From a virus, in the IMG/VR virus record IMGVR_UViG_3300025009_000176, positions 1 through 45,465 of that record: a stretch of DNA of 45,465 nucleotides. One strand, given 5' to 3'. A program made the translations under genes and the position numbers. The notes under the pieces are model-generated. The model did no database searches. It had not been told where the DNA came from and saw nothing but the letters and a program-made list of their open reading frames with translations. The first letter of the stretch is position 1; each line of letters begins with the position of its first letter. Positions 21,579 through 34,131 of the stretch are shown here, piece by piece.

Positions 21579-21824
21579 ATGCGACCAGCAATGACGGTGA
21601 CGGTGATGATGATGGCGATGATCGCAACGGCGTGCGCGGCGTTGCAGTCCGCACCCGCCGAGCGTCCTGAATGCAGCGATCGCGCGTTGCTCGAACTCGA
21701 GTCGCGCTACGTGGCGGAGATCATGGTCGTGTGCGACGGGCACGCGTTCGACGCGTGCGGCGCCCGCGAGGCGATCGATGCGCGCTTCGACGCGCTGCGA
21801 GAGGAGTGGGTGGCGTGCCAATGA
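21579..21824 (+). CDS. Small lipoprotein, spanin candidate
   Basis: 81 residues. A GAGGAG ribosome-binding run lies almost against the ATG at 21579, and a second ATG at 21591 is better spaced. The N-terminus is hydrophobic and Met-rich (MTVTVMMMAMIATACAAL); Cys in IATAC is a likely lipidation site. The mature part is acidic and helical with four Cys (ECSD, VCDGH, DACGA, ACQ). Near the lysis genes, it could be an outer-membrane spanin subunit, or another surface lipoprotein. Confidence 0.5.
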   Translation: MRPAMTVTVMMMAMIATACAALQSAPAERPECSDRALLELESRYVAEIMVVCDGHAFDACGAREAIDARFDALREEWVACQ

Positions 21825-25530: not shown

Positions 25531-25764
25531 GTGCCCGACTACGTGATCATCGTCGACGGGGCGCGGCCTCGTCCGCGCCATCTCCGCACCGCGTTAGCGT
25601 GCTTCCGTACGCGTGAGCGGTGCCCGCTGTGCGGCCGTGCGCTGCTCGTCTACGTAACGGAGTGCCGCGACGGTGACGCCGTGTGCTTTGCGTGCGGGGG
25701 TATCGCGGGGCGCTTGCTCTCGGGGTGCGCGGTGGACGCGCACGGGGACGTGGTGGCCGCATGA
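25531..25764 (+). CDS. Small zinc-ribbon protein
   Basis: 77 residues from a GTG, with AGGAG about 8 bases upstream. [20 protein letters not shown] and then [11 protein letters not shown] give a C-x2-C ... C-x2-C zinc ribbon. Gene-regulatory or nucleic-acid-binding role is likely. First gene of the replication block. Confidence 0.55.
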
Positions 25765-26603
25765 ACATCGCGATAAGACCCTACGCGAACCTGCACCGCG
25801 CGGATCTGAGCGGCGCGAACCTGCGCGACGCGGATCTGAGCGACGCGGATCTGAGCGACGCGAACCTGCGCGGCGCGGATCTGCGCGGCGCGGATCTGCG
25901 CGACGCGGATCTGCGCGGCGCGGATCTGCGCGGCGCGGATCTGCGCGACGCGAACCTGAGCGGCGCGGATCTGCGCGGCGCGGATCTGCGCGACGCGGAT
26001 CTGCGCGGCGCGAACCTGATCGACGCGGATCTGCGCGTCGCGGATCTGCGCGGCGCGGATCTGCGCGTCGCGGATCTGCGCGGCGCGGATCTGAGCGACG
26101 CGGATCTGCGCGGCGCGAACCTGATCGACGCGGATCTGCGCGGCGCGGATCTGCGCGGCGCGAACCTGATCGACGCGAACCTGCGCGGCGCGAACCTGCA
26201 CGGCGCGAATCTGATCGACGCGAACCTGATCGACGCGAACCTGAGCGGCGCGAGAGGACTGTCCACGTCAGCAGAGTGGTTAGCAACGTTCGACGCCGAC
26301 GCCGATGGAGTGCGCGTGTACAAGCGCATAGGCGCTACGCGCACGCAGTACGCGCTGCCCGCGCGGTGGGTCATCGAGCCAGGCGCAGTGCTCACCGAGG
26401 TGGTCAATCCCTGCCGTACGACGGAGTGCGGATGCGGCGTAAATTTCGCCACGCGCGAATGGTGCGACGCGCATTACACGGACTCGGCGCTGTGGCTGTG
26501 CCGAATCGCGTGGATCGATCTCGCCGACGTCGTCGTGCCGTACGGCACCGACGGCAAAGCGCGATGCGCGCGGCTGACGCTGCTCCGCGTGGTGCCGGCA
26601 TGA
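25761..26603 (+). CDS. Pentapeptide-repeat protein with C-terminal domain
   Basis: 280 residues, start overlapping the preceding stop. Residues 9-165 are about 30 A-(D/N)-L-x-x pentapeptides ([20 protein letters not shown]...), forming a right-handed quadrilateral beta helix. The C-terminal 115 residues ([40 protein letters not shown]) match the DUF5758-type domain that accompanies phage pentapeptide proteins. Pentapeptide helices can mimic DNA, as in Qnr and MfpA, so shielding gyrase is one idea; not shown here. Confidence 0.85.
25797..26252 (+). repeat. 15-bp tandem repeat array in pentapeptide gene
   Basis: About 30 consecutive units of a 15-base repeat close to GCGGATCTGCGCGGC encode the pentapeptides. 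Variation is mostly in the two x positions (CGC GGC, AGC GAC, ATC GAC, CGC GTC). Near-perfect codon-level identity suggests slippage or recombination changes copy number. Confidence 0.9.
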
Positions 26604-26788
26604 GCGCGCGCTGTCCCGAGTGCCGCGGCGAACGCGGGCGGCATAAGCTCTCGTGCGGCGCTCGGATGCATCTAGCGATGCTCGATCGCGGCGCGGTAAG
26701 CTCGCACTTTGGGCCGCTGGATCTGCTCGATGAGTACCGCACGCTCGTGCGATCGCTTGCGCTCCGTGCCGCGAGGGCCCACGCGTGA
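26600..26788 (+). CDS. Small Cys-motif protein
   Basis: 62 residues. [16 protein letters not shown] is a zinc-knuckle-like start, followed by a helical region ([20 protein letters not shown]). Overlaps both neighbours by 4 bases. Not recognised. Confidence 0.5.
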
Positions 26789-28008
26789 GGCGGCCCTACT
26801 ACAGCGCCTCAGCGATCAAGCAAGGCGCGCGCTGCGCGCGAGCGTGGGCGCTTACGTACATCGACGGCCTCCGCGACGCGGACGTCGAATGGCACGAGAT
26901 TGAAGCGGGCCCCGTGGTGCCGCCGCGGGTGCGATCGCTCTCACTAGGCAAGGCGGTGCACGCCGTAGGCGAGACACACTACCAGCAAGACGACGCCGAT
27001 CAAGTGCAGTGGTGCACACTGCCCGCGCAGATCTACATGAGCGGTCTCGGGCATCTGCCACGCCCGAGTGAGTGCACCGTGATCGAGGTCGAGCGCGCCC
27101 TAGGCGACGCGCCCACCGGGCTAACCGCGCCCCGACCGCCATCGACGATCGAGATCGCCGGCGTGCGCTGGGCTGGCTTCCGCGATCTCGCCGTCGAGGT
27201 GCGCGGACGGTGGCTACAGATCGACTACAAGACCACGCGGTCGATCGCGCGGTGGGCCCTCACTCCGGAGGCGCTCGCGGGCGATCTACAGTGCGCGCTG
27301 TACTCGTACGATCTCGCCGTGCGCCTTGGCGTCGATACGATCGATTCGCGGTGGCTCTACCTCGAGACCGGTGCGGTGCGCCGATCCGCGCCCGTCGACG
27401 TCGTCGTGTCGAGGCAGCAAGCGATCGACGTGATCGGCCCGGCGGCGGACGTCGCGCTGCGCCTCGACGCGATCGACGCGAGCGACTCCGCCGAGTGCAA
27501 CACCGATGCGTGCTGGGACTACGGCGGGTGCAGATTTCATCACACCCGCGGAGGGCCGTGCGATGCGCGCACGTCGATCCGCGGATTTTTCACACAGCAA
27601 ACACGAAGGAACAACGACATGGATCCAGCAACGCTAGCGAAGTTTCAAACGCTCGGCGCGCCCGCCGCGGTGATCACCGCGCCCCCCGCGGATCAGGACG
27701 CCGCCGACGCGGCCGCGTTCGCCGCGCTCACCACGCCCGCCACGCCCGCCGCGCCCGCCACGCCCGCCGCGCCCGCCGCACCCGCCGCGCCCGCCGCGCC
27801 CAAGCCGCGCACGCGCAAACCGAAGGACACCACCACGGCGCCACCCGCGCCGGAGGGCGGCCTCGCTGCACAGCTCGCGATCGCCGTGGCCGCGCTCGCC
27901 ACCGCCGAGACCGCGGCGAGCGCGGCCGCGCAAGCGCTCGACGCCGCGAACGCCGCCTACGGCGACGCCGTCGAGGCGGTGCGCGCGATCGTGGGCGGTG
28001 CATCGTGA
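26785..28008 (+). CDS. PD-(D/E)XK nuclease with Fe-S cysteines, fused tail
   Basis: 407 residues from a GTG overlapping the previous stop. YYSASAIKQGARCARAWALT opens the RecB/Cas4/AddB-like nuclease fold; GFRDLAVEV gives Asp134, and IDYKTT gives Asp147 and Lys149, the active site. Cys17 near the start and Cys238, Cys243, Cys249 and Cys259 resemble the 4Fe-4S set of Cas4/AddB. After about residue 278 the character changes to an Ala/Pro-rich linker and coiled coil; the DNA at the join looks like a leader, with an internal start at 27619. Likely end-processing in replication or recombination. Confidence 0.75.
   Translation: MRRPYYSASAIKQGARCARAWALTYIDGLRDADVEWHEIEAGPVVPPRVRSLSLGKAVHAVGETHYQQDDADQVQWCTLPAQIYMSGLGHLPRPSECTVIEVERALGDAPTGLTAPRPPSTIEIAGVRWAGFRDLAVEVRGRWLQIDYKTTRSIARWALTPEALAGDLQCALYSYDLAVRLGVDTIDSRWLYLETGAVRRSAPVDVVVSRQQAIDVIGPAADVALRLDAIDASDSAECNTDACWDYGGCRFHHTRGGPCDARTSIRGFFTQQTRRNNDMDPATLAKFQTLGAPAAVITAPPADQDAADAAAFAALTTPATPAAPATPAAPAAPAAPAAPKPRTRKPKDTTTAPPAPEGGLAAQLAIAVAALATAETAASAAAQALDAANAAYGDAVEAVRAIVGGAS
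27619..28008 (+). CDS. Nested C-terminal protein (internal start)
   Basis: 129 residues in frame with the nuclease. AAGGA at 27606-27610 is 8 bases before this ATG, and the preceding stretch is unusually A-rich, as intergenic leaders in this genome are. The product would be an Ala/Pro linker protein with KPRTRKPKDTTT and a helical Ala/Glu end. Either the two genes fused by loss of a stop codon, or both forms are made. Confidence 0.45.
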   Translation: MDPATLAKFQTLGAPAAVITAPPADQDAADAAAFAALTTPATPAAPATPAAPAAPAAPAAPKPRTRKPKDTTTAPPAPEGGLAAQLAIAVAALATAETAASAAAQALDAANAAYGDAVEAVRAIVGGAS

Positions 28009-28268: not shown

Positions 28269-28660
28269 GCCCTGAAGTAGCCGAGACGGTCCGCGCGTTC
28301 TCGCCGTGGAAGCCGAAGCTCTCCGTGGACTTCATCGTCGTGTCGGTGGACCCTGACGACTTCGCCCACGCCGCGGCGTACGTAGGCTTCACCGCGCGGC
28401 CGGTCGAGCGTATCGCGGACGCCGCGCACCGGCACGTGAGCGCAAAATACACCGAGGTGCGCTACGCCACCGCCGCCGCGCGGCGATCCGACCGCGCGCG
28501 GGTCCTAGTCGACACGCGGCAGTGCCTATCGTGGGCGCAATTCGGTGAGCTCGTGCAAGCCGTGCGCACCGAGGCGATGACGCACGTCGGCCCTATCCAC
28601 GTGCGTGTCACCGCACCGGGTAAAACGTCCTTCGGGGCCGTTGCGGGGGTGCTCGCGTGA
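28265..28660 (+). CDS. Hypothetical protein before helicase
   Basis: 131 residues from GTG (GTGA overlap). Alpha/beta: KLSVDFIVVSVDPDDFAHAA, then VRYATAAARRSDRARVLVDT and GPIHVRVTAPGKTSFGAVAG. No catalytic signature identified. Coupled to the SF2 helicase gene on its right. Confidence 0.45.
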   Translation: MSPEVAETVRAFSPWKPKLSVDFIVVSVDPDDFAHAAAYVGFTARPVERIADAAHRHVSAKYTEVRYATAAARRSDRARVLVDTRQCLSWAQFGELVQAVRTEAMTHVGPIHVRVTAPGKTSFGAVAGVLA

Positions 28661-30327
28661 GCCTCGCCGTAGCCCACACGATCGAGTTCGATCGGATCGC
28701 CTCGCTCCCGCGTCGTCGCGTCGACGCGACGATCGCCGCGCAGTGGGCTACGGCACTCGACCCGATATTCGCCCTGCGCGCCGATGCGCACCTCCGACCG
28801 TGGCAGGCGTTCGCGCTCGTCGAGGCGGTCGAGGTCGGCGGCGCGTGGCTCGCGCTGCCCGTCGGGATCGGCAAGACGCTGATCTCGTGGCTGCTTCCGA
28901 CGGCGATGCAATCGGAGCGCGCGTTGCTACTCGTGCCGGGATCGCTAGTGGATAAGACCCGCGCGGACTTCGCGGAGTTCGTCGGCGTGTGGCGCGCGCC
29001 GGCGAATCCGCTGCGCATCGAGACGCGGGAGATGCTCGCGACCGTGCGAGGCGCGGAGATCCTCGACGCGTACCGGCCGGATCTGATCATCATCGACGAG
29101 GCCGACAAGCTCAGCAACGCGCGCTCGAGCGTCGCCCGGCGCGTGGATCGCTACGTCCGCGAGGCCGCGCCGCGCGTGGTCGCGATGACGGGCACGCCCT
29201 CGCGCAAGTCAATCCTGGACTACTGGCACCTGCTCGCGTGGTGCCTCGGAGACAGCGCGCCGATCCCGCTGTCGCGCGACGAGGCGACGGTGTGGTCGCT
29301 CGCGATCGACGAGCAGCGCGGCGAGCAAGCAGACCCCGGCCCGCTCGGCGCGACGCTCGCCGCCGCGGGTGCGTGGTACCGCCGACGCCTCGCGGAAACG
29401 CCCGGCGTGGTGGTCGTCGATGAGGACAGCTGCGACGCGCCTCTCACCGTGCGGGTGCGACTCGCGCGCGAGGACGCCACGCTAGATGCAGCGTTCGAGC
29501 GCTTCGCCGTCGAGCAAGAGAACCCCGGCGGCATCCCGGTGAGCGATCCGCTCTCGCGGTGGCTGCTCGACGGCCAGCTTGGGCTAGGACTGTATTCCGT
29601 GTGGTCGCCGCCGCCGCCGGAGGAGTGGCGCACCGCACGCCGGGCGGTGGCGCGCTTCGTCCGCGAGCGCATCGACGCCACGACACACACGCGGCGCCCG
29701 CTCGACACCGAGGCGCAGGTACTGCGGCGGTACGACACGCACCCCGTGGTGACCGCGTGGCTCGCGCAGAAGCCGCTGTTCGCCGGCGCGACGGAGACGG
29801 TGTGGATCTCTCGCAGCGCGATCGAGTCGGCGCGCGACTGGCTCCGCGAGCTCGACGGCGTGCCGGGGATCGTGTGGTGCGGAAGTGTCCCGTTCGGGAT
29901 GGCGCTAGCCGAGGCCGCCGGGCTAGCGTACTACGGCGCCAAGGGCACCACCGCCGGCGGTGCGTCGCTTCGGTTCGCGCCGGTGGGCGTGTCGCTGTGC
30001 GCGTCGTGGAAAGCGAATATGACCGGCTTCAATCTGCAAGCGTGGCCGCGGCAATTGGTCACCATGCCCCCGCAGAGCGCGAAGTGGCTCGAGCAGATCT
30101 TCGGTCGGTCACACCGAAGCGGACAGCGCGAGCATGTGATCGTCGACGTGCTGGCCACGAGCGGGGGGACGCTCGATCTCGTCGAGACCGCGATCGGCGA
30201 AGCCGCGCGCGTGAAGCGCAATGAGGGCCTCACGCAGAAGATCCTACGCGCGGACGTGGTGCGCGCCGAGCCGCGCGTCACCGCGCGCAACGAGTTTCGA
30301 TGGGCGCGAAGGGAGCGAGACGAATGA
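28657..30327 (+). CDS. SF2 (SNF2-like) helicase
   Basis: 556 residues from GTG. Motif I LPVGIGKTL with Lys73; motif II IIIDEADKLS with Asp147-Glu148-Ala-Asp150; motif III MTGTPSRKS at about 179; motif VI QIFGRSHRSGQ at about 480. The H-R-S-G-Q ending is the SNF2-type signature, so the protein likely translocates on dsDNA or remodels DNA-protein complexes in phage replication or recombination, as the helicases of many dsDNA phages do. Start overlaps the previous gene; the next gene overlaps it. Confidence 0.88.
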   Translation: MSLAVAHTIEFDRIASLPRRRVDATIAAQWATALDPIFALRADAHLRPWQAFALVEAVEVGGAWLALPVGIGKTLISWLLPTAMQSERALLLVPGSLVDKTRADFAEFVGVWRAPANPLRIETREMLATVRGAEILDAYRPDLIIIDEADKLSNARSSVARRVDRYVREAAPRVVAMTGTPSRKSILDYWHLLAWCLGDSAPIPLSRDEATVWSLAIDEQRGEQADPGPLGATLAAAGAWYRRRLAETPGVVVVDEDSCDAPLTVRVRLAREDATLDAAFERFAVEQENPGGIPVSDPLSRWLLDGQLGLGLYSVWSPPPPEEWRTARRAVARFVRERIDATTHTRRPLDTEAQVLRRYDTHPVVTAWLAQKPLFAGATETVWISRSAIESARDWLRELDGVPGIVWCGSVPFGMALAEAAGLAYYGAKGTTAGGASLRFAPVGVSLCASWKANMTGFNLQAWPRQLVTMPPQSAKWLEQIFGRSHRSGQREHVIVDVLATSGGTLDLVETAIGEAARVKRNEGLTQKILRADVVRAEPRVTARNEFRWARRERDE

Positions 30328-30815
30328 CGCGCACCGCCGTCGTCGTCGCCGTCGCCACCCTCGCGTGCGCCGCGTGCACCGCCGCCGCGCCCGCCGCGCC
30401 GCCGCGCACGATCGCACCGCGGGCGGCGTTCGTGTGCATCGACGACGCGTTCCCTCCGGCGGGCGCAAGCGCCACGCGCACCGCCGCAGCGCTGTGGTCA
30501 CGAGCGCTGCGCTACCGCGTGGCGCTCGTGCCGGTGCACATCGACGGCGCGGTGATGCCGCCGCCGGCGGCGTGCGACCTCGTCGTGTATCGCACCGCGA
30601 TCGACGCGGGCGACACGACCGCCGGCTTCGTCGACGCGATCGGCGGGCGCTACGCGTGGATCGTCGACGGAGTCGTGCCGCGCGAGCGCGTGCGATGCGT
30701 GGTCGTCCACGAGATCGGGCACCTGCTCGGCCTCCGACACGACGCCCGCGGCGTGATGCGCGCAACGCTCGCGTGTGTGCCGATCACCGAGCACGAGGCC
30801 GACGCGGTGCTGTAG
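30324..30815 (+). CDS. Metzincin-like zinc protease, predicted lipoprotein
   Basis: 163 residues, ATG overlapping the helicase stop. TRTAVVVAVATLACAACTAA is a signal peptide with lipidation-type Cys at 15 or 18. Then an alpha/beta region, and VVHEIGHLLGLRHDARGVM: the zinc motif HExxHxxGxxH (His129-His139) plus a Met (Met145) in the Met-turn position, the hallmark of metzincins. It is small for the clan, near the size of a matrixin core. Active-site Glu130 is present, so it should be active. A secreted protease in the middle of a replication operon is unexpected; exclusion, host surface cleavage or a host-derived moron are candidates. Confidence 0.75.
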   Translation: MTRTAVVVAVATLACAACTAAAPAAPPRTIAPRAAFVCIDDAFPPAGASATRTAAALWSRALRYRVALVPVHIDGAVMPPPAACDLVVYRTAIDAGDTTAGFVDAIGGRYAWIVDGVVPRERVRCVVVHEIGHLLGLRHDARGVMRATLACVPITEHEADAVL

Positions 30816-30904: not shown

Positions 30905-31495
30905 ATGTTCGCAAACAAGTTCGGTGTTCCTGCTTCTGCTCCGGCGACCGCGCCCGCCGCGCCACCGCAGCGCTCCCGCTACGGCGGTATCCAGTGCGGC
31001 GAGGCGCGCGATCCGATGCTCGACCTCGGCACCTACCGCGTGCGGATCGTGAGCTGCACCGAGGGCAGCAACCCCAAGACCGGCCGTGCGTCGGTCAAGC
31101 TTGGCGTGTGCGTGGTCGCCGCGTCGCCCGACGCCGGTACGCCCGTCGACGCGGTGTGCACCGTCGTGCACCTCGCCACGCCGATCGGTCTCGGCGAGCT
31201 CAAGACCATGCTCGTGCACGCGGCCGGCTGCGGTCCGACGCTCGCGCAGCGCGCCGCCGGTGACATCCGCGCGATCGCGAAGGAGGGTGAGGCGCGATAC
31301 GACGCCGTCGACGCGAGCACCTACCCGGGGTCGATCATCGAGGCCACCGCAGGCACCGCGAACGGCGCGCCGTCGATGATCGGTCGCCTCGTCGACGTCG
31401 TCGTGACGCGCGGCCGGGACACCAAGTCCGAGGGCGACTGGTACCGCAACTTTCGCTGGGGCGCCGTGCCGGAGGCGGAGCAGATCCCGGCGTAG
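30905..31495 (+). CDS. ssDNA-binding protein candidate (DUF669-like)
   Basis: 196 residues with a strong GAAAGGA ribosome-binding site. Ala/Pro-rich start (ANKFGVPASAPATAPAAPPQ), then a beta core (GTYRVRIVSCTEGSNPKTGR, ASVKLGVCVVAASP) followed by ASTYPGSIIEATAG and DTKSEGDWYRNFRW near the end. This looks like the OB-type ssDNA-binding/DUF669 proteins placed next to phage polymerases. It would coat single-stranded DNA during replication. The strong ribosome site suggests high expression. Confidence 0.6.
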   Translation: MFANKFGVPASAPATAPAAPPQRSRYGGIQCGEARDPMLDLGTYRVRIVSCTEGSNPKTGRASVKLGVCVVAASPDAGTPVDAVCTVVHLATPIGLGELKTMLVHAAGCGPTLAQRAAGDIRAIAKEGEARYDAVDASTYPGSIIEATAGTANGAPSMIGRLVDVVVTRGRDTKSEGDWYRNFRWGAVPEAEQIPA

Positions 31496-31551: not shown

Positions 31552-31710
31552 ATGACGATCACCATCGACTCGCGCGGCGTGTACACGCTGCGGCTCACTG
31601 CGGCGGAAGCCGCCGCGCTACAGCACGCGATCACGATCGCGCGGCCTAGCGGCACGGCGGCCACGCCCGACGGGCGCGCGGTGGTGGTCGTCGTGGAGGT
31701 CGCGCGATGA
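31552..31710 (+). CDS. Small beta protein before polymerase
   Basis: 52 residues. TITIDSRGVYTLRLTAAEAA suggests a beta hairpin, followed by a helix and a beta strand (AVVVVVEVAR). Overlaps the polymerase start by ATGA. Not recognised. Confidence 0.5.
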   Translation: MTITIDSRGVYTLRLTAAEAAALQHAITIARPSGTAATPDGRAVVVVVEVAR

Positions 31711-33740
31711 TCACGCCCGTGTTGCTCGACGTCGAGTCGCGCTCCCGCGCGAATCTCAAGCGCGTAGACGGGCGGCTGTACTGGCAGCACCCGTCGAGCG
31801 CCGTGCTCGTGGTGGTGTGGTACGACACCGCCAACGGCGCCGTCGGTGCGTGGTACCCAGGCGACGTGTGGCCGCACCACGGGCGCGTGCTCGCCGCACA
31901 CAACGCGCATGGCTTCGATCGGTTCGCGCTCGAGCGCTACGGGATCACCGCCGCGGAGTGGATCGATACCGCGCAGCTCGCACGCAAGGCGGGCCTCCCC
32001 GGCGCGCTCGACGCCCTCGGTGTGCGGTGGTGCGGCACGCCGAAGGACAAGGTCGCGTCGGCGTACACGCGCTCGCTGAGCGCGGTGGCGCGACCGGTGG
32101 CGCGCATCGACGCGCTCGCGATCGCGTGCCCCCGCTGCGCGGCAGCCGTCGGCGACGCGTGCCGCGGAGTCAAGCACGCGCACAAGGCGCGCCGCGACGC
32201 CGCGCCGTCGGTCGGGCGCGAGATCCCCGCGACCGTGTGGCGCGACATGCCCGACGACGAGCGCCGCCGCGTCGGCACACAGCCCGCGATCGACGCGGCG
32301 GTGATGTCGCGCGTGGTTGCGTACTGCGCGTCCGACGTGGCGATCATGGTCGATGCGTGGCCGCGCCTCGCGGAGTGGATCCCCGTCGACGCGGAGGTCG
32401 AGGCGCTCGACCGCGTGCTCAACGATCGCGGGGTCGCGTTCGACTCAGCGCTCGCACGCCGGCTGCTCGCCGAAGACGCGCGGATCTGCGACGCGGTGAT
32501 CGCCGAGGTCGCGCGCGCGTGCGGCGTGACCGTCGCCGCGGTGCGCGAGGCCGCATCCTCGCCGGCGCAATTCTGCGCGGCCACCGGCGCCGCGGATGCG
32601 CAAGCCGCCACCGTCGAGACGATGGCGCATCCGCTCGCACGCGCGCGCATGGCGCTCGCGTCGATCACCCGCGGCAAGATGCTCGCCGGTCTCGCGCGTG
32701 TCGGCGCCGACGGACGCATGCGCGACACGATGCGGTACTACGGCGGGCACACGGGGCGGTGGAGCAGCGTAGGCATGCAGCTCCACAACCTTCCGCGCCC
32801 CGACAAACGGTTCGAAGACGTGCGCGGCGACGCGCGGTATCCCGCGCTCGACGACGGAGCGATCGACGTCGACGCGTTCGCGGATGCGGTGCTTACCGGG
32901 CGCGAGTGCGACGCCGCGGAACGCGACCTGCTCGTGCGTGCGACGATCACCGCGTCGCGCGGGCACCGGCTCGCGGTGGCTGACTTCGCGAGCGTCGAAG
33001 CCCGCGGCACCGCGTGGGCTGCGGACGACCGCGACGCGATCGCGGTGTTCACGAGCGACCTCGATCCGTACCGCGTGGCCGCGGCGGCAATCTACGGGAT
33101 CGACTACGCCGCCGTGACATGGCAACGCAAGGTCGGCAAGGTCGCAGAGCTCGCGTGTGGCTACGGCGGCGGCCCGGCGGCGTTCGAGAAATTCGCGGCC
33201 GTGTATCGCGTGGATCTGAGCGCGCTAGACCTGCGCGCCACGGTCACCGCGTGGCGCACGCTGCACCGTCCGATCGTGGCGCTGTGGTACGCGTGCGAGC
33301 GTGCGTTTCGATCCGCGATCGAAGGCCGCGCTCGCACGGTGGGCCCGTTCGAGTTCGTGCCCAGCGACGCGGGCGACGCGGTGGCGTGCTTCCTCCCCAG
33401 CGGTCGGCCGATCGTGTACCACGCGGCGCGGATCTCGCGTGACGGATCGCTCGCGTACCTCGGAGTGCACGGTACCGAGCACGTCTACGGAGGCAAGCTC
33501 ATCGAGAACGCGATCCAAGCGCTGTGTCGGGATCTGATGGCGGTGGCGCTGCTCCGCGCGGAGCGCGAAGGGCTCAATCCGGTGCTCACCGTGCACGACG
33601 AGATCGTGTGCGACGTGCCGGAGGCGCGAGCGGACGGGGCCTACGCCGCGCTACGTGACGCGATGCTCGCGCTGCCGGCGTGGGCGGCGGGCTTCCCGAT
33701 CGGCTGCAGCGGCTGGATCGGGCGGCGGTATCGAAAGTGA
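31707..33740 (+). CDS. Family A DNA polymerase with inserted zinc knuckle
   Basis: 677 residues. The exonuclease domain is marked by LLDVESR (Asp8, Glu10), AHNAHGFDRFAL and VAYCASDVAIM. Motif A is AVADFASVEARG (Asp426), motif B WQRKVGKVAELACGYGG, motif C TVHDEIV (His630-Asp631-Glu632). These complete a T7/Pol I-type replicative polymerase. Unusually, between the exonuclease motifs (residues 141-159) lies CPRCAAAVGDAC with following His157 and His159, a zinc-binding insert that I would not expect in standard family A members. Replicates the phage genome. Confidence 0.92.
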   Translation: MITPVLLDVESRSRANLKRVDGRLYWQHPSSAVLVVVWYDTANGAVGAWYPGDVWPHHGRVLAAHNAHGFDRFALERYGITAAEWIDTAQLARKAGLPGALDALGVRWCGTPKDKVASAYTRSLSAVARPVARIDALAIACPRCAAAVGDACRGVKHAHKARRDAAPSVGREIPATVWRDMPDDERRRVGTQPAIDAAVMSRVVAYCASDVAIMVDAWPRLAEWIPVDAEVEALDRVLNDRGVAFDSALARRLLAEDARICDAVIAEVARACGVTVAAVREAASSPAQFCAATGAADAQAATVETMAHPLARARMALASITRGKMLAGLARVGADGRMRDTMRYYGGHTGRWSSVGMQLHNLPRPDKRFEDVRGDARYPALDDGAIDVDAFADAVLTGRECDAAERDLLVRATITASRGHRLAVADFASVEARGTAWAADDRDAIAVFTSDLDPYRVAAAAIYGIDYAAVTWQRKVGKVAELACGYGGGPAAFEKFAAVYRVDLSALDLRATVTAWRTLHRPIVALWYACERAFRSAIEGRARTVGPFEFVPSDAGDAVACFLPSGRPIVYHAARISRDGSLAYLGVHGTEHVYGGKLIENAIQALCRDLMAVALLRAEREGLNPVLTVHDEIVCDVPEARADGAYAALRDAMLALPAWAAGFPIGCSGWIGRRYRK

Positions 33741-33757
33741 CACCAACGGAGGACAAC

Positions 33758-33787
33758 ATGGGATCGAAACGAGATAGATTGATATGA
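33758..33787 (+). CDS. Nine-codon leader ORF (MGSKRDRLI)
   Basis: ATG at 33758 with GGAGGACAAC upstream, the best ribosome-binding site in the area, opens a 9-codon frame. Its TGA (33785-33787) overlaps the ATG of the next gene (33784). The next gene lacks its own good site, so it appears to depend on translation of this leader. Confidence 0.55.
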   Translation: MGSKRDRLI

Positions 33788-34131
33788 CGCCGCGCGACGT
33801 CTACGCAACCGCGGAGTCGACCGCGCTGCGCGGTAGCGACCTCCGCGGGATCGACCTCAGCGGTAGCAACATGCGCGGGGCGGATCTCCGCGGGTGCGAT
33901 CTCGCCGGCGCGGAGTTCGACGGCGCCACGCTCACCGACGCGATCGGCCTCGCGGAAAGCGACGACTTCGTCGAGTTGCGCGAGGAGCACACGGACGCGC
34001 TGCGTGAGTGCGCCGAAGCAAAGGCCGCGCTCGCGGCGCTGATCGCCGCCGTGGACGCGATCGAACCGGAGGCCGTCGACTTTCCCGAGATGGCTACCGC
34101 GTTAGCTGCGGCGCGCGAGGCGGTGCTGTGA
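33784..34131 (+). CDS. Short pentapeptide and coiled-coil protein
   Basis: 115 residues. Residues 12-55 are about seven pentapeptide units (LRGSDLRGIDLSGSNMRGAD), then a helical coiled coil (EEHTDALRECAEAKAALAAL) and an Ala-rich tail. A second, smaller member of the pentapeptide family in this genome. Role unknown; DNA mimicry or protein docking are possibilities. Coupled to a 9-codon leader. Confidence 0.6.
   Translation: MTPRDVYATAESTALRGSDLRGIDLSGSNMRGADLRGCDLAGAEFDGATLTDAIGLAESDDFVELREEHTDALRECAEAKAALAALIAAVDAIEPEAVDFPEMATALAAAREAVL

Follow-up and report, generated by a model that had tools for sequence, protein, structure and literature searches.

Why should a phage carry, in the middle of its replication genes, a gene for an apparently exported zinc protease? 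The question is raised by the gene at 30324–30815 (+ strand) in a 45,465-nt stretch of DNA from an uncultivated virus (IMG/VR record IMGVR_UViG_3300025009_000176, positions 1–45,465), referred to here as the window.

The gene and its neighbors

The open reading frame at 30324–30815 is real. It encodes 163 amino acids plus a stop (product P0001) on the + strand, exactly at the coordinates given in the first-pass annotation. A ribosome-binding site, AAGGGAG (30309–30315, +), is located 8 nt before the ATG, which overlaps the stop codon of the upstream helicase gene as ATGA. The alternative in-frame ATG at 30300 lacks a ribosome site such as AAGGGAG. The G+C content at the three codon positions (0.76/0.58/0.93) follows the same pattern as in the neighboring genes.

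The gene is part of a run of replication genes, all on the + strand, that begins with an exonuclease-like gene (26785–28008; phrog_69, E 2e-5). The DNA helicase gene whose stop overlaps the metzincin start (28657–30327; phrog_62, E 4e-18) encodes a product with 55–67% identity in related phages. Directly downstream of the metzincin gene is that of a conserved replication-region protein (30905–31495; 38–48% identity in related phages), and the run includes the DNA polymerase (31707–33740; phrog_17, E 3e-83). The first-pass annotation had placed P0001 between helicase and ssDNA-binding genes. The helicase is indeed a neighbor, as is the DNA polymerase, but the "ssDNA-binding" label of the downstream gene was not borne out, its product having no PHROG match. 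A promoter scan recognized none, RNA-family and tRNA scans returned nothing useful, and the timing of metzincin expression is read from operon position alone.

Zinc motif and predicted fold

The predicted zinc-binding and catalytic motif of P0001, HEIGHLLGLRH, occupies residues 129–139 (30708–30740, +). It is the single occurrence of HExxHxxGxxH in the six frames of the window, and the pattern appeared in 0/150 simulated Markov-1 windows. Downstream of the third His lies Met145 of the Met-turn (ARGVMRA; 30756–30758, +), a nearly invariant column in both of our alignments (A1 and A2), in agreement with the motif and Met-turn Met originally reported. Trp58 of helix A (30495–30497, +) is invariant in the phage alignments. 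The zinc ligands, the catalytic Glu, Trp58 and a signal-peptide Cys are all retained across divergent phage homologues.

The top Pfam matches of P0001 are metzincin or zincin families, all under their curated cut-offs. Matrixin (PF00413, M10) reached 22.7 bits (cut-off 24) and DUF4953 "Met-zincin" 22.3 bits (cut-off 24.2). PF02031 (snapalysin, M7) was not among the Pfam matches, and PHROGs gave no significant family.

Structure prediction, proposed in the first-pass annotation as a check, yielded the metzincin topology. AlphaFold2 was run with an 11-sequence phage alignment; the best model has a pLDDT of 86.3 and a pTM of 0.76, and the five models span pLDDT values from 74 to 86. The predicted order of elements is b1-aA-b2-b3-b4-b5-aB-Met-turn-aC, with the zinc helix aB at residues 120–134 and a final helix at 156–162. 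A Foldseek search of the PDB with this model returned 180 matches at E < 0.001; among those listed, the best are karilysin, ADAM-8, snake-venom proteases, snapalysin and MMPs, with a probability of 1.00 for karilysin, MMPs, ADAMs and snapalysin. Of the two findings that were to count against the assignment, a model lacking zinc-site geometry and close identity to a known non-protease family, neither occurred: judged by its order of strands and helices, the model has the metzincin topology, and no non-protease family explains P0001. The identification of P0001 as a phage-encoded metzincin is therefore computationally well supported, by its sequence and by the model. Active proteases are included among the Foldseek matches, and P0001 would be expected to bind zinc and to act as a peptidase.

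Among the known systems closest to P0001 are two groups of metzincins. The matrixins (PF00413, M10; karilysin, MMP catalytic domains) appear to share the fold topology, zinc motif and Met-turn, with a Foldseek TM of ~0.57 for the model; unlike them, P0001 is minimal in size and has no recognizable pro-domain. Snapalysin (M7) of Streptomyces, a secreted enzyme, is likewise a small bacterial metzincin and has the highest target-normalized TM among the listed matches (0.66–0.69).

A diffuse family in uncultivated phages

Simple searches with P0001 were negative. It has no relative among 50,697 phage records (tblastn against isolate phages), and a single-sequence scan of viral contigs gave no match. 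Relatives were found with a degenerate DNA pattern for HEIGHxLGxxH, which located 91 stretches in IMG/VR. Among the proteins encoded there is a set of 130–240 amino acids with lipoprotein-type starts. An independent profile was built from proteins of large contigs (L018, L123 (two), L124, L125), leaving P0001 out. P0001 scores 52.0 bits against this profile, compared with a maximum of 27.1 in 200 shuffles that preserve the zinc core, and most other viral metzincins reach ≤30 bits. With the zinc core masked, P0001 still scores 15.8 bits versus 0.2 for the best of 500 shuffles. The A2 model gives it 146 bits, a value that is not independent, since P0001 is a row of A2.

A lipobox rule is passed by 16/27 of the collected phage proteins and by 1/32 viral matrixins of the twin-arginine (TAT) type, a comparison that is descriptive, the 27-protein set having been chosen partly with lipoprotein starts in view. 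In the tree, one branch (support 100/99) lies between the two sampled groups, lipoprotein-type and TAT-type, and P0001 falls with the former; branches are long, and the tree places P0001 on the lipoprotein side but not at any position inside it. By these comparisons, P0001 is a member of a loosely related family found in contigs of uncultivated phages, made up of small metzincins most of which are of lipoprotein type. The Matrixin PF00413 cut-off is exceeded by the related-phage proteins discussed below and by several family proteins, unlike P0001. The phage identity of some family contigs is backed by terminase-like matches; for those without such a match it rests on IMG/VR. The metzincin genes of L018 and L088 are identical, and hence give no dN/dS.

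The first-pass annotation considered such a protease rarely described. This is true of the searchable literature, where we find the Listeria protein Mtz (PMC8235301), and of isolate phages, which gave no tblastn match, but it does not hold for uncultivated phages.

Copy number varies across the family. The 394-kb contig G005 (IMGVR_UViG_3300047994_000374) carries ~8 metzincin-like genes (L123, L134–L138), two of them in tandem, and some other family contigs have two metzincin matches. In L018, L124 and L125, the gene directly upstream of the metzincin gene encodes a Trypsin_2 domain that scores over the cut-off (pairs at L018 1802–2979, L124 5109–6525 and L125 4847–6276). These pairs are surrounded by arrays of genes for ~100-aa CxxC zinc-ribbon-like proteins. 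The trypsin-like proteins of L018 and L125 have lipoprotein-like starts, and that of L124 plausibly so.

Two further observations were made among the viral metzincins. A 95-kb high-GC viral contig (L103) has two different lipoprotein-start metzincins in tandem, at 1196–1738 and 1801–2553. By a simple pattern, 32/93 viral HEIGH-type proteins (within L018–L107, e.g., L024, L032, L041, L048) have a twin-arginine-like start; the nine of them that were sampled make up a matrixin group of their own, whose Met-turn is ALMYPY-like.

Metzincins of bacterial genomes were considered as a source but are not treated as such. They are mostly large proteins whose similarity is confined to the surroundings of the active site, and none exceeded 42.3 bits in the four genomes scored with A2. 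A search for the family across 195 genomes of a single phylum, in which 15 candidates per genome were scored, gave nothing at E 1e-10; as no positive control was recovered either, this is weak evidence.

Export signal and probable lipid anchor

Judged from its N-terminal residues, P0001 carries an export-type signal. The signal peptide, MTRTAVVVAVATLA (residues 1–14; 30324–30365, +), is indicated by the sequence, by the lipobox rule and by an AlphaFold2 helix at residues 2–18. Cys15 (30366–30368, +) is the favored predicted lipidation cysteine, and Cys18 (30375–30377, +) is the alternative: alignment A1 pairs Cys15 with the Cys that is invariant among the remaining phage proteins, whereas in A2 that column is occupied by Cys18. 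The four residues before Cys15 are A-T-L-A, and this cysteine conforms to a PROSITE PS51257-type lipobox rule, which is passed by 4/305 six-frame ORFs of the window. The canonical lipobox [LVI][ASTVI][GAS]C is found at neither position (T-L-A-C at Cys15, C-A-A-C at Cys18). The lipidation signal, earlier described as clear, thus passes the PS51257-type rule (ATLAC) but is not a canonical lipobox, and we regard it as plausible only. On balance, P0001 is likely to be lipidated.

Conversely, signal peptidase I may free a soluble protease to the periplasm or the medium, where it would act on neighboring cells or on the host-colony matrix. The non-canonical T-L-A-C, followed by an Ala-rich stretch with AxA sites, is compatible with such release, and Mtz is itself a Sec/SPI protein (PMC8235301). 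In Myxococcus xanthus, Ala at +7 has been tied to extracellular-matrix sorting (PMC3222651). Counted from Cys15 as +1, P0001 also has Ala at +7, a weak hint given that the region is Ala-rich and that a Myxococcota host is itself a guess. Secretion without an anchor is nevertheless rather improbable, since lipobox signals recur in the family (16/27) and a Cys is aligned at the lipidation position in every row of A1 and A2.

Gene order in related phages

Three contigs have helicase, polymerase and structural genes in common with the window, and in none of them is the metzincin gene kept beside the helicase gene. In L003 and L005, the helicase gene is followed directly by the homologue of 30905–31495, with no metzincin between them. 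In L002, the slot downstream of the helicase holds other genes, and it takes other insertions in G001. Two of the three related phages (G002, G003) encode a small lipoprotein metzincin elsewhere, antisense between tail-region genes (L129 6964–7389 and L128 6795–7181; both over the M10 cut-off). No metzincin was found in the third, G001. The AlphaFold2 model of L129 was poor (pLDDT 53) and was not used. In G014, the metzincin gene comes after tail-region genes, and next to it downstream is a small gene for a Cys-rich, lipoprotein-like product.

The occurrence of the metzincin at unlinked loci in the relatives indicates that the protease is accessory and not part of replication. The contrast between a protease and its replication neighbors, which the first-pass annotation pointed out, does not survive this comparison: the position in the replication operon appears to be incidental, and the function of the protease an accessory one.

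Proposed function

Computation demonstrates the gene, the motif, the predicted fold, the export-type signal, the family relationship and the recurrence at unlinked loci. We propose from these that P0001 may be an exported, probably lipid-anchored protease that cuts envelope proteins during lytic infection, serving superinfection exclusion or envelope weakening, and we give this proposal roughly even chances. Its translation coupled to that of the helicase, the protease would be made alongside the replication proteins and exported by Sec across the inner membrane as a minimal matrixin-like zinc endopeptidase. Lipidation at Cys15 or Cys18 would then leave a short linker to present the catalytic domain at the membrane surface. 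Here it could cleave envelope proteins of the host, or of an incoming phage. Surface receptors or lipoproteins would be removed or altered, blocking re-infection of the infected cell; alternatively, the envelope would be weakened ahead of lysis. We infer the membrane, the substrate and the benefit, together with the lipid anchor. The cell-surface alteration of the infected host that was suggested at the outset is a reasonable inference.

There is precedent for both outcomes. The phage-derived Mtz of Listeria cleaves the lipoprotein Tim and sensitizes cells to lysis (PMC8235301), and the phage lipoprotein Ltp blocks superinfection (PMC3952083). Several points count against the envelope-protease proposal: the non-canonical lipobox, a C-terminus that is shorter than that of most relatives and lacks their terminal Cys, the poor model of L129, and a timing read from operon position. 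P0001 also has no close homologue with which selection on its own active site could be measured.

A second explanation, which we consider rather unlikely, is that of an accessory lysis factor. In this case, late cleavage of envelope lipoproteins or wall enzymes would sensitize the cell to endolysin, in the manner of Mtz-Tim, where proteolysis by Mtz boosts both lysis by phage and sensitivity to penicillin (PMC8235301). The metzincins of the related phages, placed among late tail genes, and that of G014, placed after tail-region genes, are consistent with this role. The window metzincin, however, is among replication genes and at a distance from the lysis genes presumed from position and sequence near 22–24.6 kb, and its neighbors (helicase and conserved replication-region gene) include no evident TIMP-like partner. 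The early-type position in the window favors superinfection exclusion over lysis; the late-region position in the relatives favors the opposite.

A more specific form of the envelope-protease proposal is that phage-specific lipid-anchored metzincins, present in multiple copies and sometimes paired with trypsin-like proteins, form a protease coat that destroys receptors or incoming tail proteins, a proteolytic superinfection exclusion. We regard such a coat as speculative and unlikely.

It is very unlikely that the gene is lysogenic-conversion cargo (a moron) of a temperate phage, benefiting the lysogen. Its accessory distribution and the antisense orientation to tail-gene neighbors in G002 and G003 do resemble independently expressed cargo. 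However, the window metzincin is coupled to the helicase, and no integrase or resolvase above the cut-off was found in the window or the three relatives with two Pfam integrase families, making a lytic life of the phage more likely. Least probable is that the gene was captured from a host and does nothing for the phage: the metzincin is missing from the same slot in relatives, which in G001 holds other insertions, but the frame and catalytic residues are intact, the composition is neighbor-like, and carriage is repeated in unrelated phages.

Relation to known phage systems

Exported phage proteases are little studied, and Listeria Mtz-Tim is the directly relevant precedent. Compared by description, Mtz resembles P0001 in being a phage-linked exported metzincin with HExxHxxGxxH/D and a Met-turn, encoded by an accessory gene (PMC8235301). 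In the Listeria pair, Mtz carries a Sec/SPI signal and the lipoprotein is the partner, Tim, whereas here it is the protease, P0001, that probably bears the lipid anchor. Mtz is located near holin-lysin genes in Gram-positive prophages; the P0001 gene is in a replication run with no Tim-like neighbor evident. Ltp of Streptococcus thermophilus phage TP-J34 is likewise a small phage-encoded lipoprotein acting outside the membrane (PMC3952083). In contrast to P0001, which lies between replication genes with no integrase above the cut-off, Ltp comes from a temperate phage, where it is part of the lysogeny module, and it is not described as a protease.

Of greater interest than the one gene in the window is the metzincin family that spans uncultivated phages. 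Recurrent probable lipoprotein metzincins, in up to ~8 copies per contig and at shifting loci, suggest a repeatedly selected proteolytic editing of the host envelope. The family provides a concrete, testable set of proteins for work on superinfection exclusion and on the control of lysis, and it would let annotators recognize members that score under the Pfam cut-offs and match no PHROG.

Host and other genes of the window

Homologues of the helicase occur in 19/195 genomes from the phylum to which a "Deltaproteobacteria" genome belongs, with ~35% identity by local alignment and 28% by tblastn over the whole length; these genomes are 8–12.4 Mb in size. The large genomes, together with a GPDAGPDA-type lipoprotein at 2322–2663, suggest a host in Myxococcota, which we offer as a guess. 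A phage_integrase match in the window was rejected as spurious (14.3 bits, below cut-off, with a stop inside).

In several large bacterial genomes, an exonuclease gene related to 26785–28008 lies beside the helicase homologue (L148–L157), the pair being perhaps prophage-borne. The gene at 2322–2663 is the second lipoprotein-type gene in the window, its product carrying VVTGC and, after it, GPDAGPDAAPDA repeats. Near the presumed lysis genes, 21591–21824 encodes a small Cys-containing protein with an export-type start (76% identity over 54 aa in G001), possibly an outer spanin. Pentapeptide-repeat proteins are encoded at 25761–26603 and 33784–34131, where the DNA repeats give rise to long spurious ORFs on the opposite strand.
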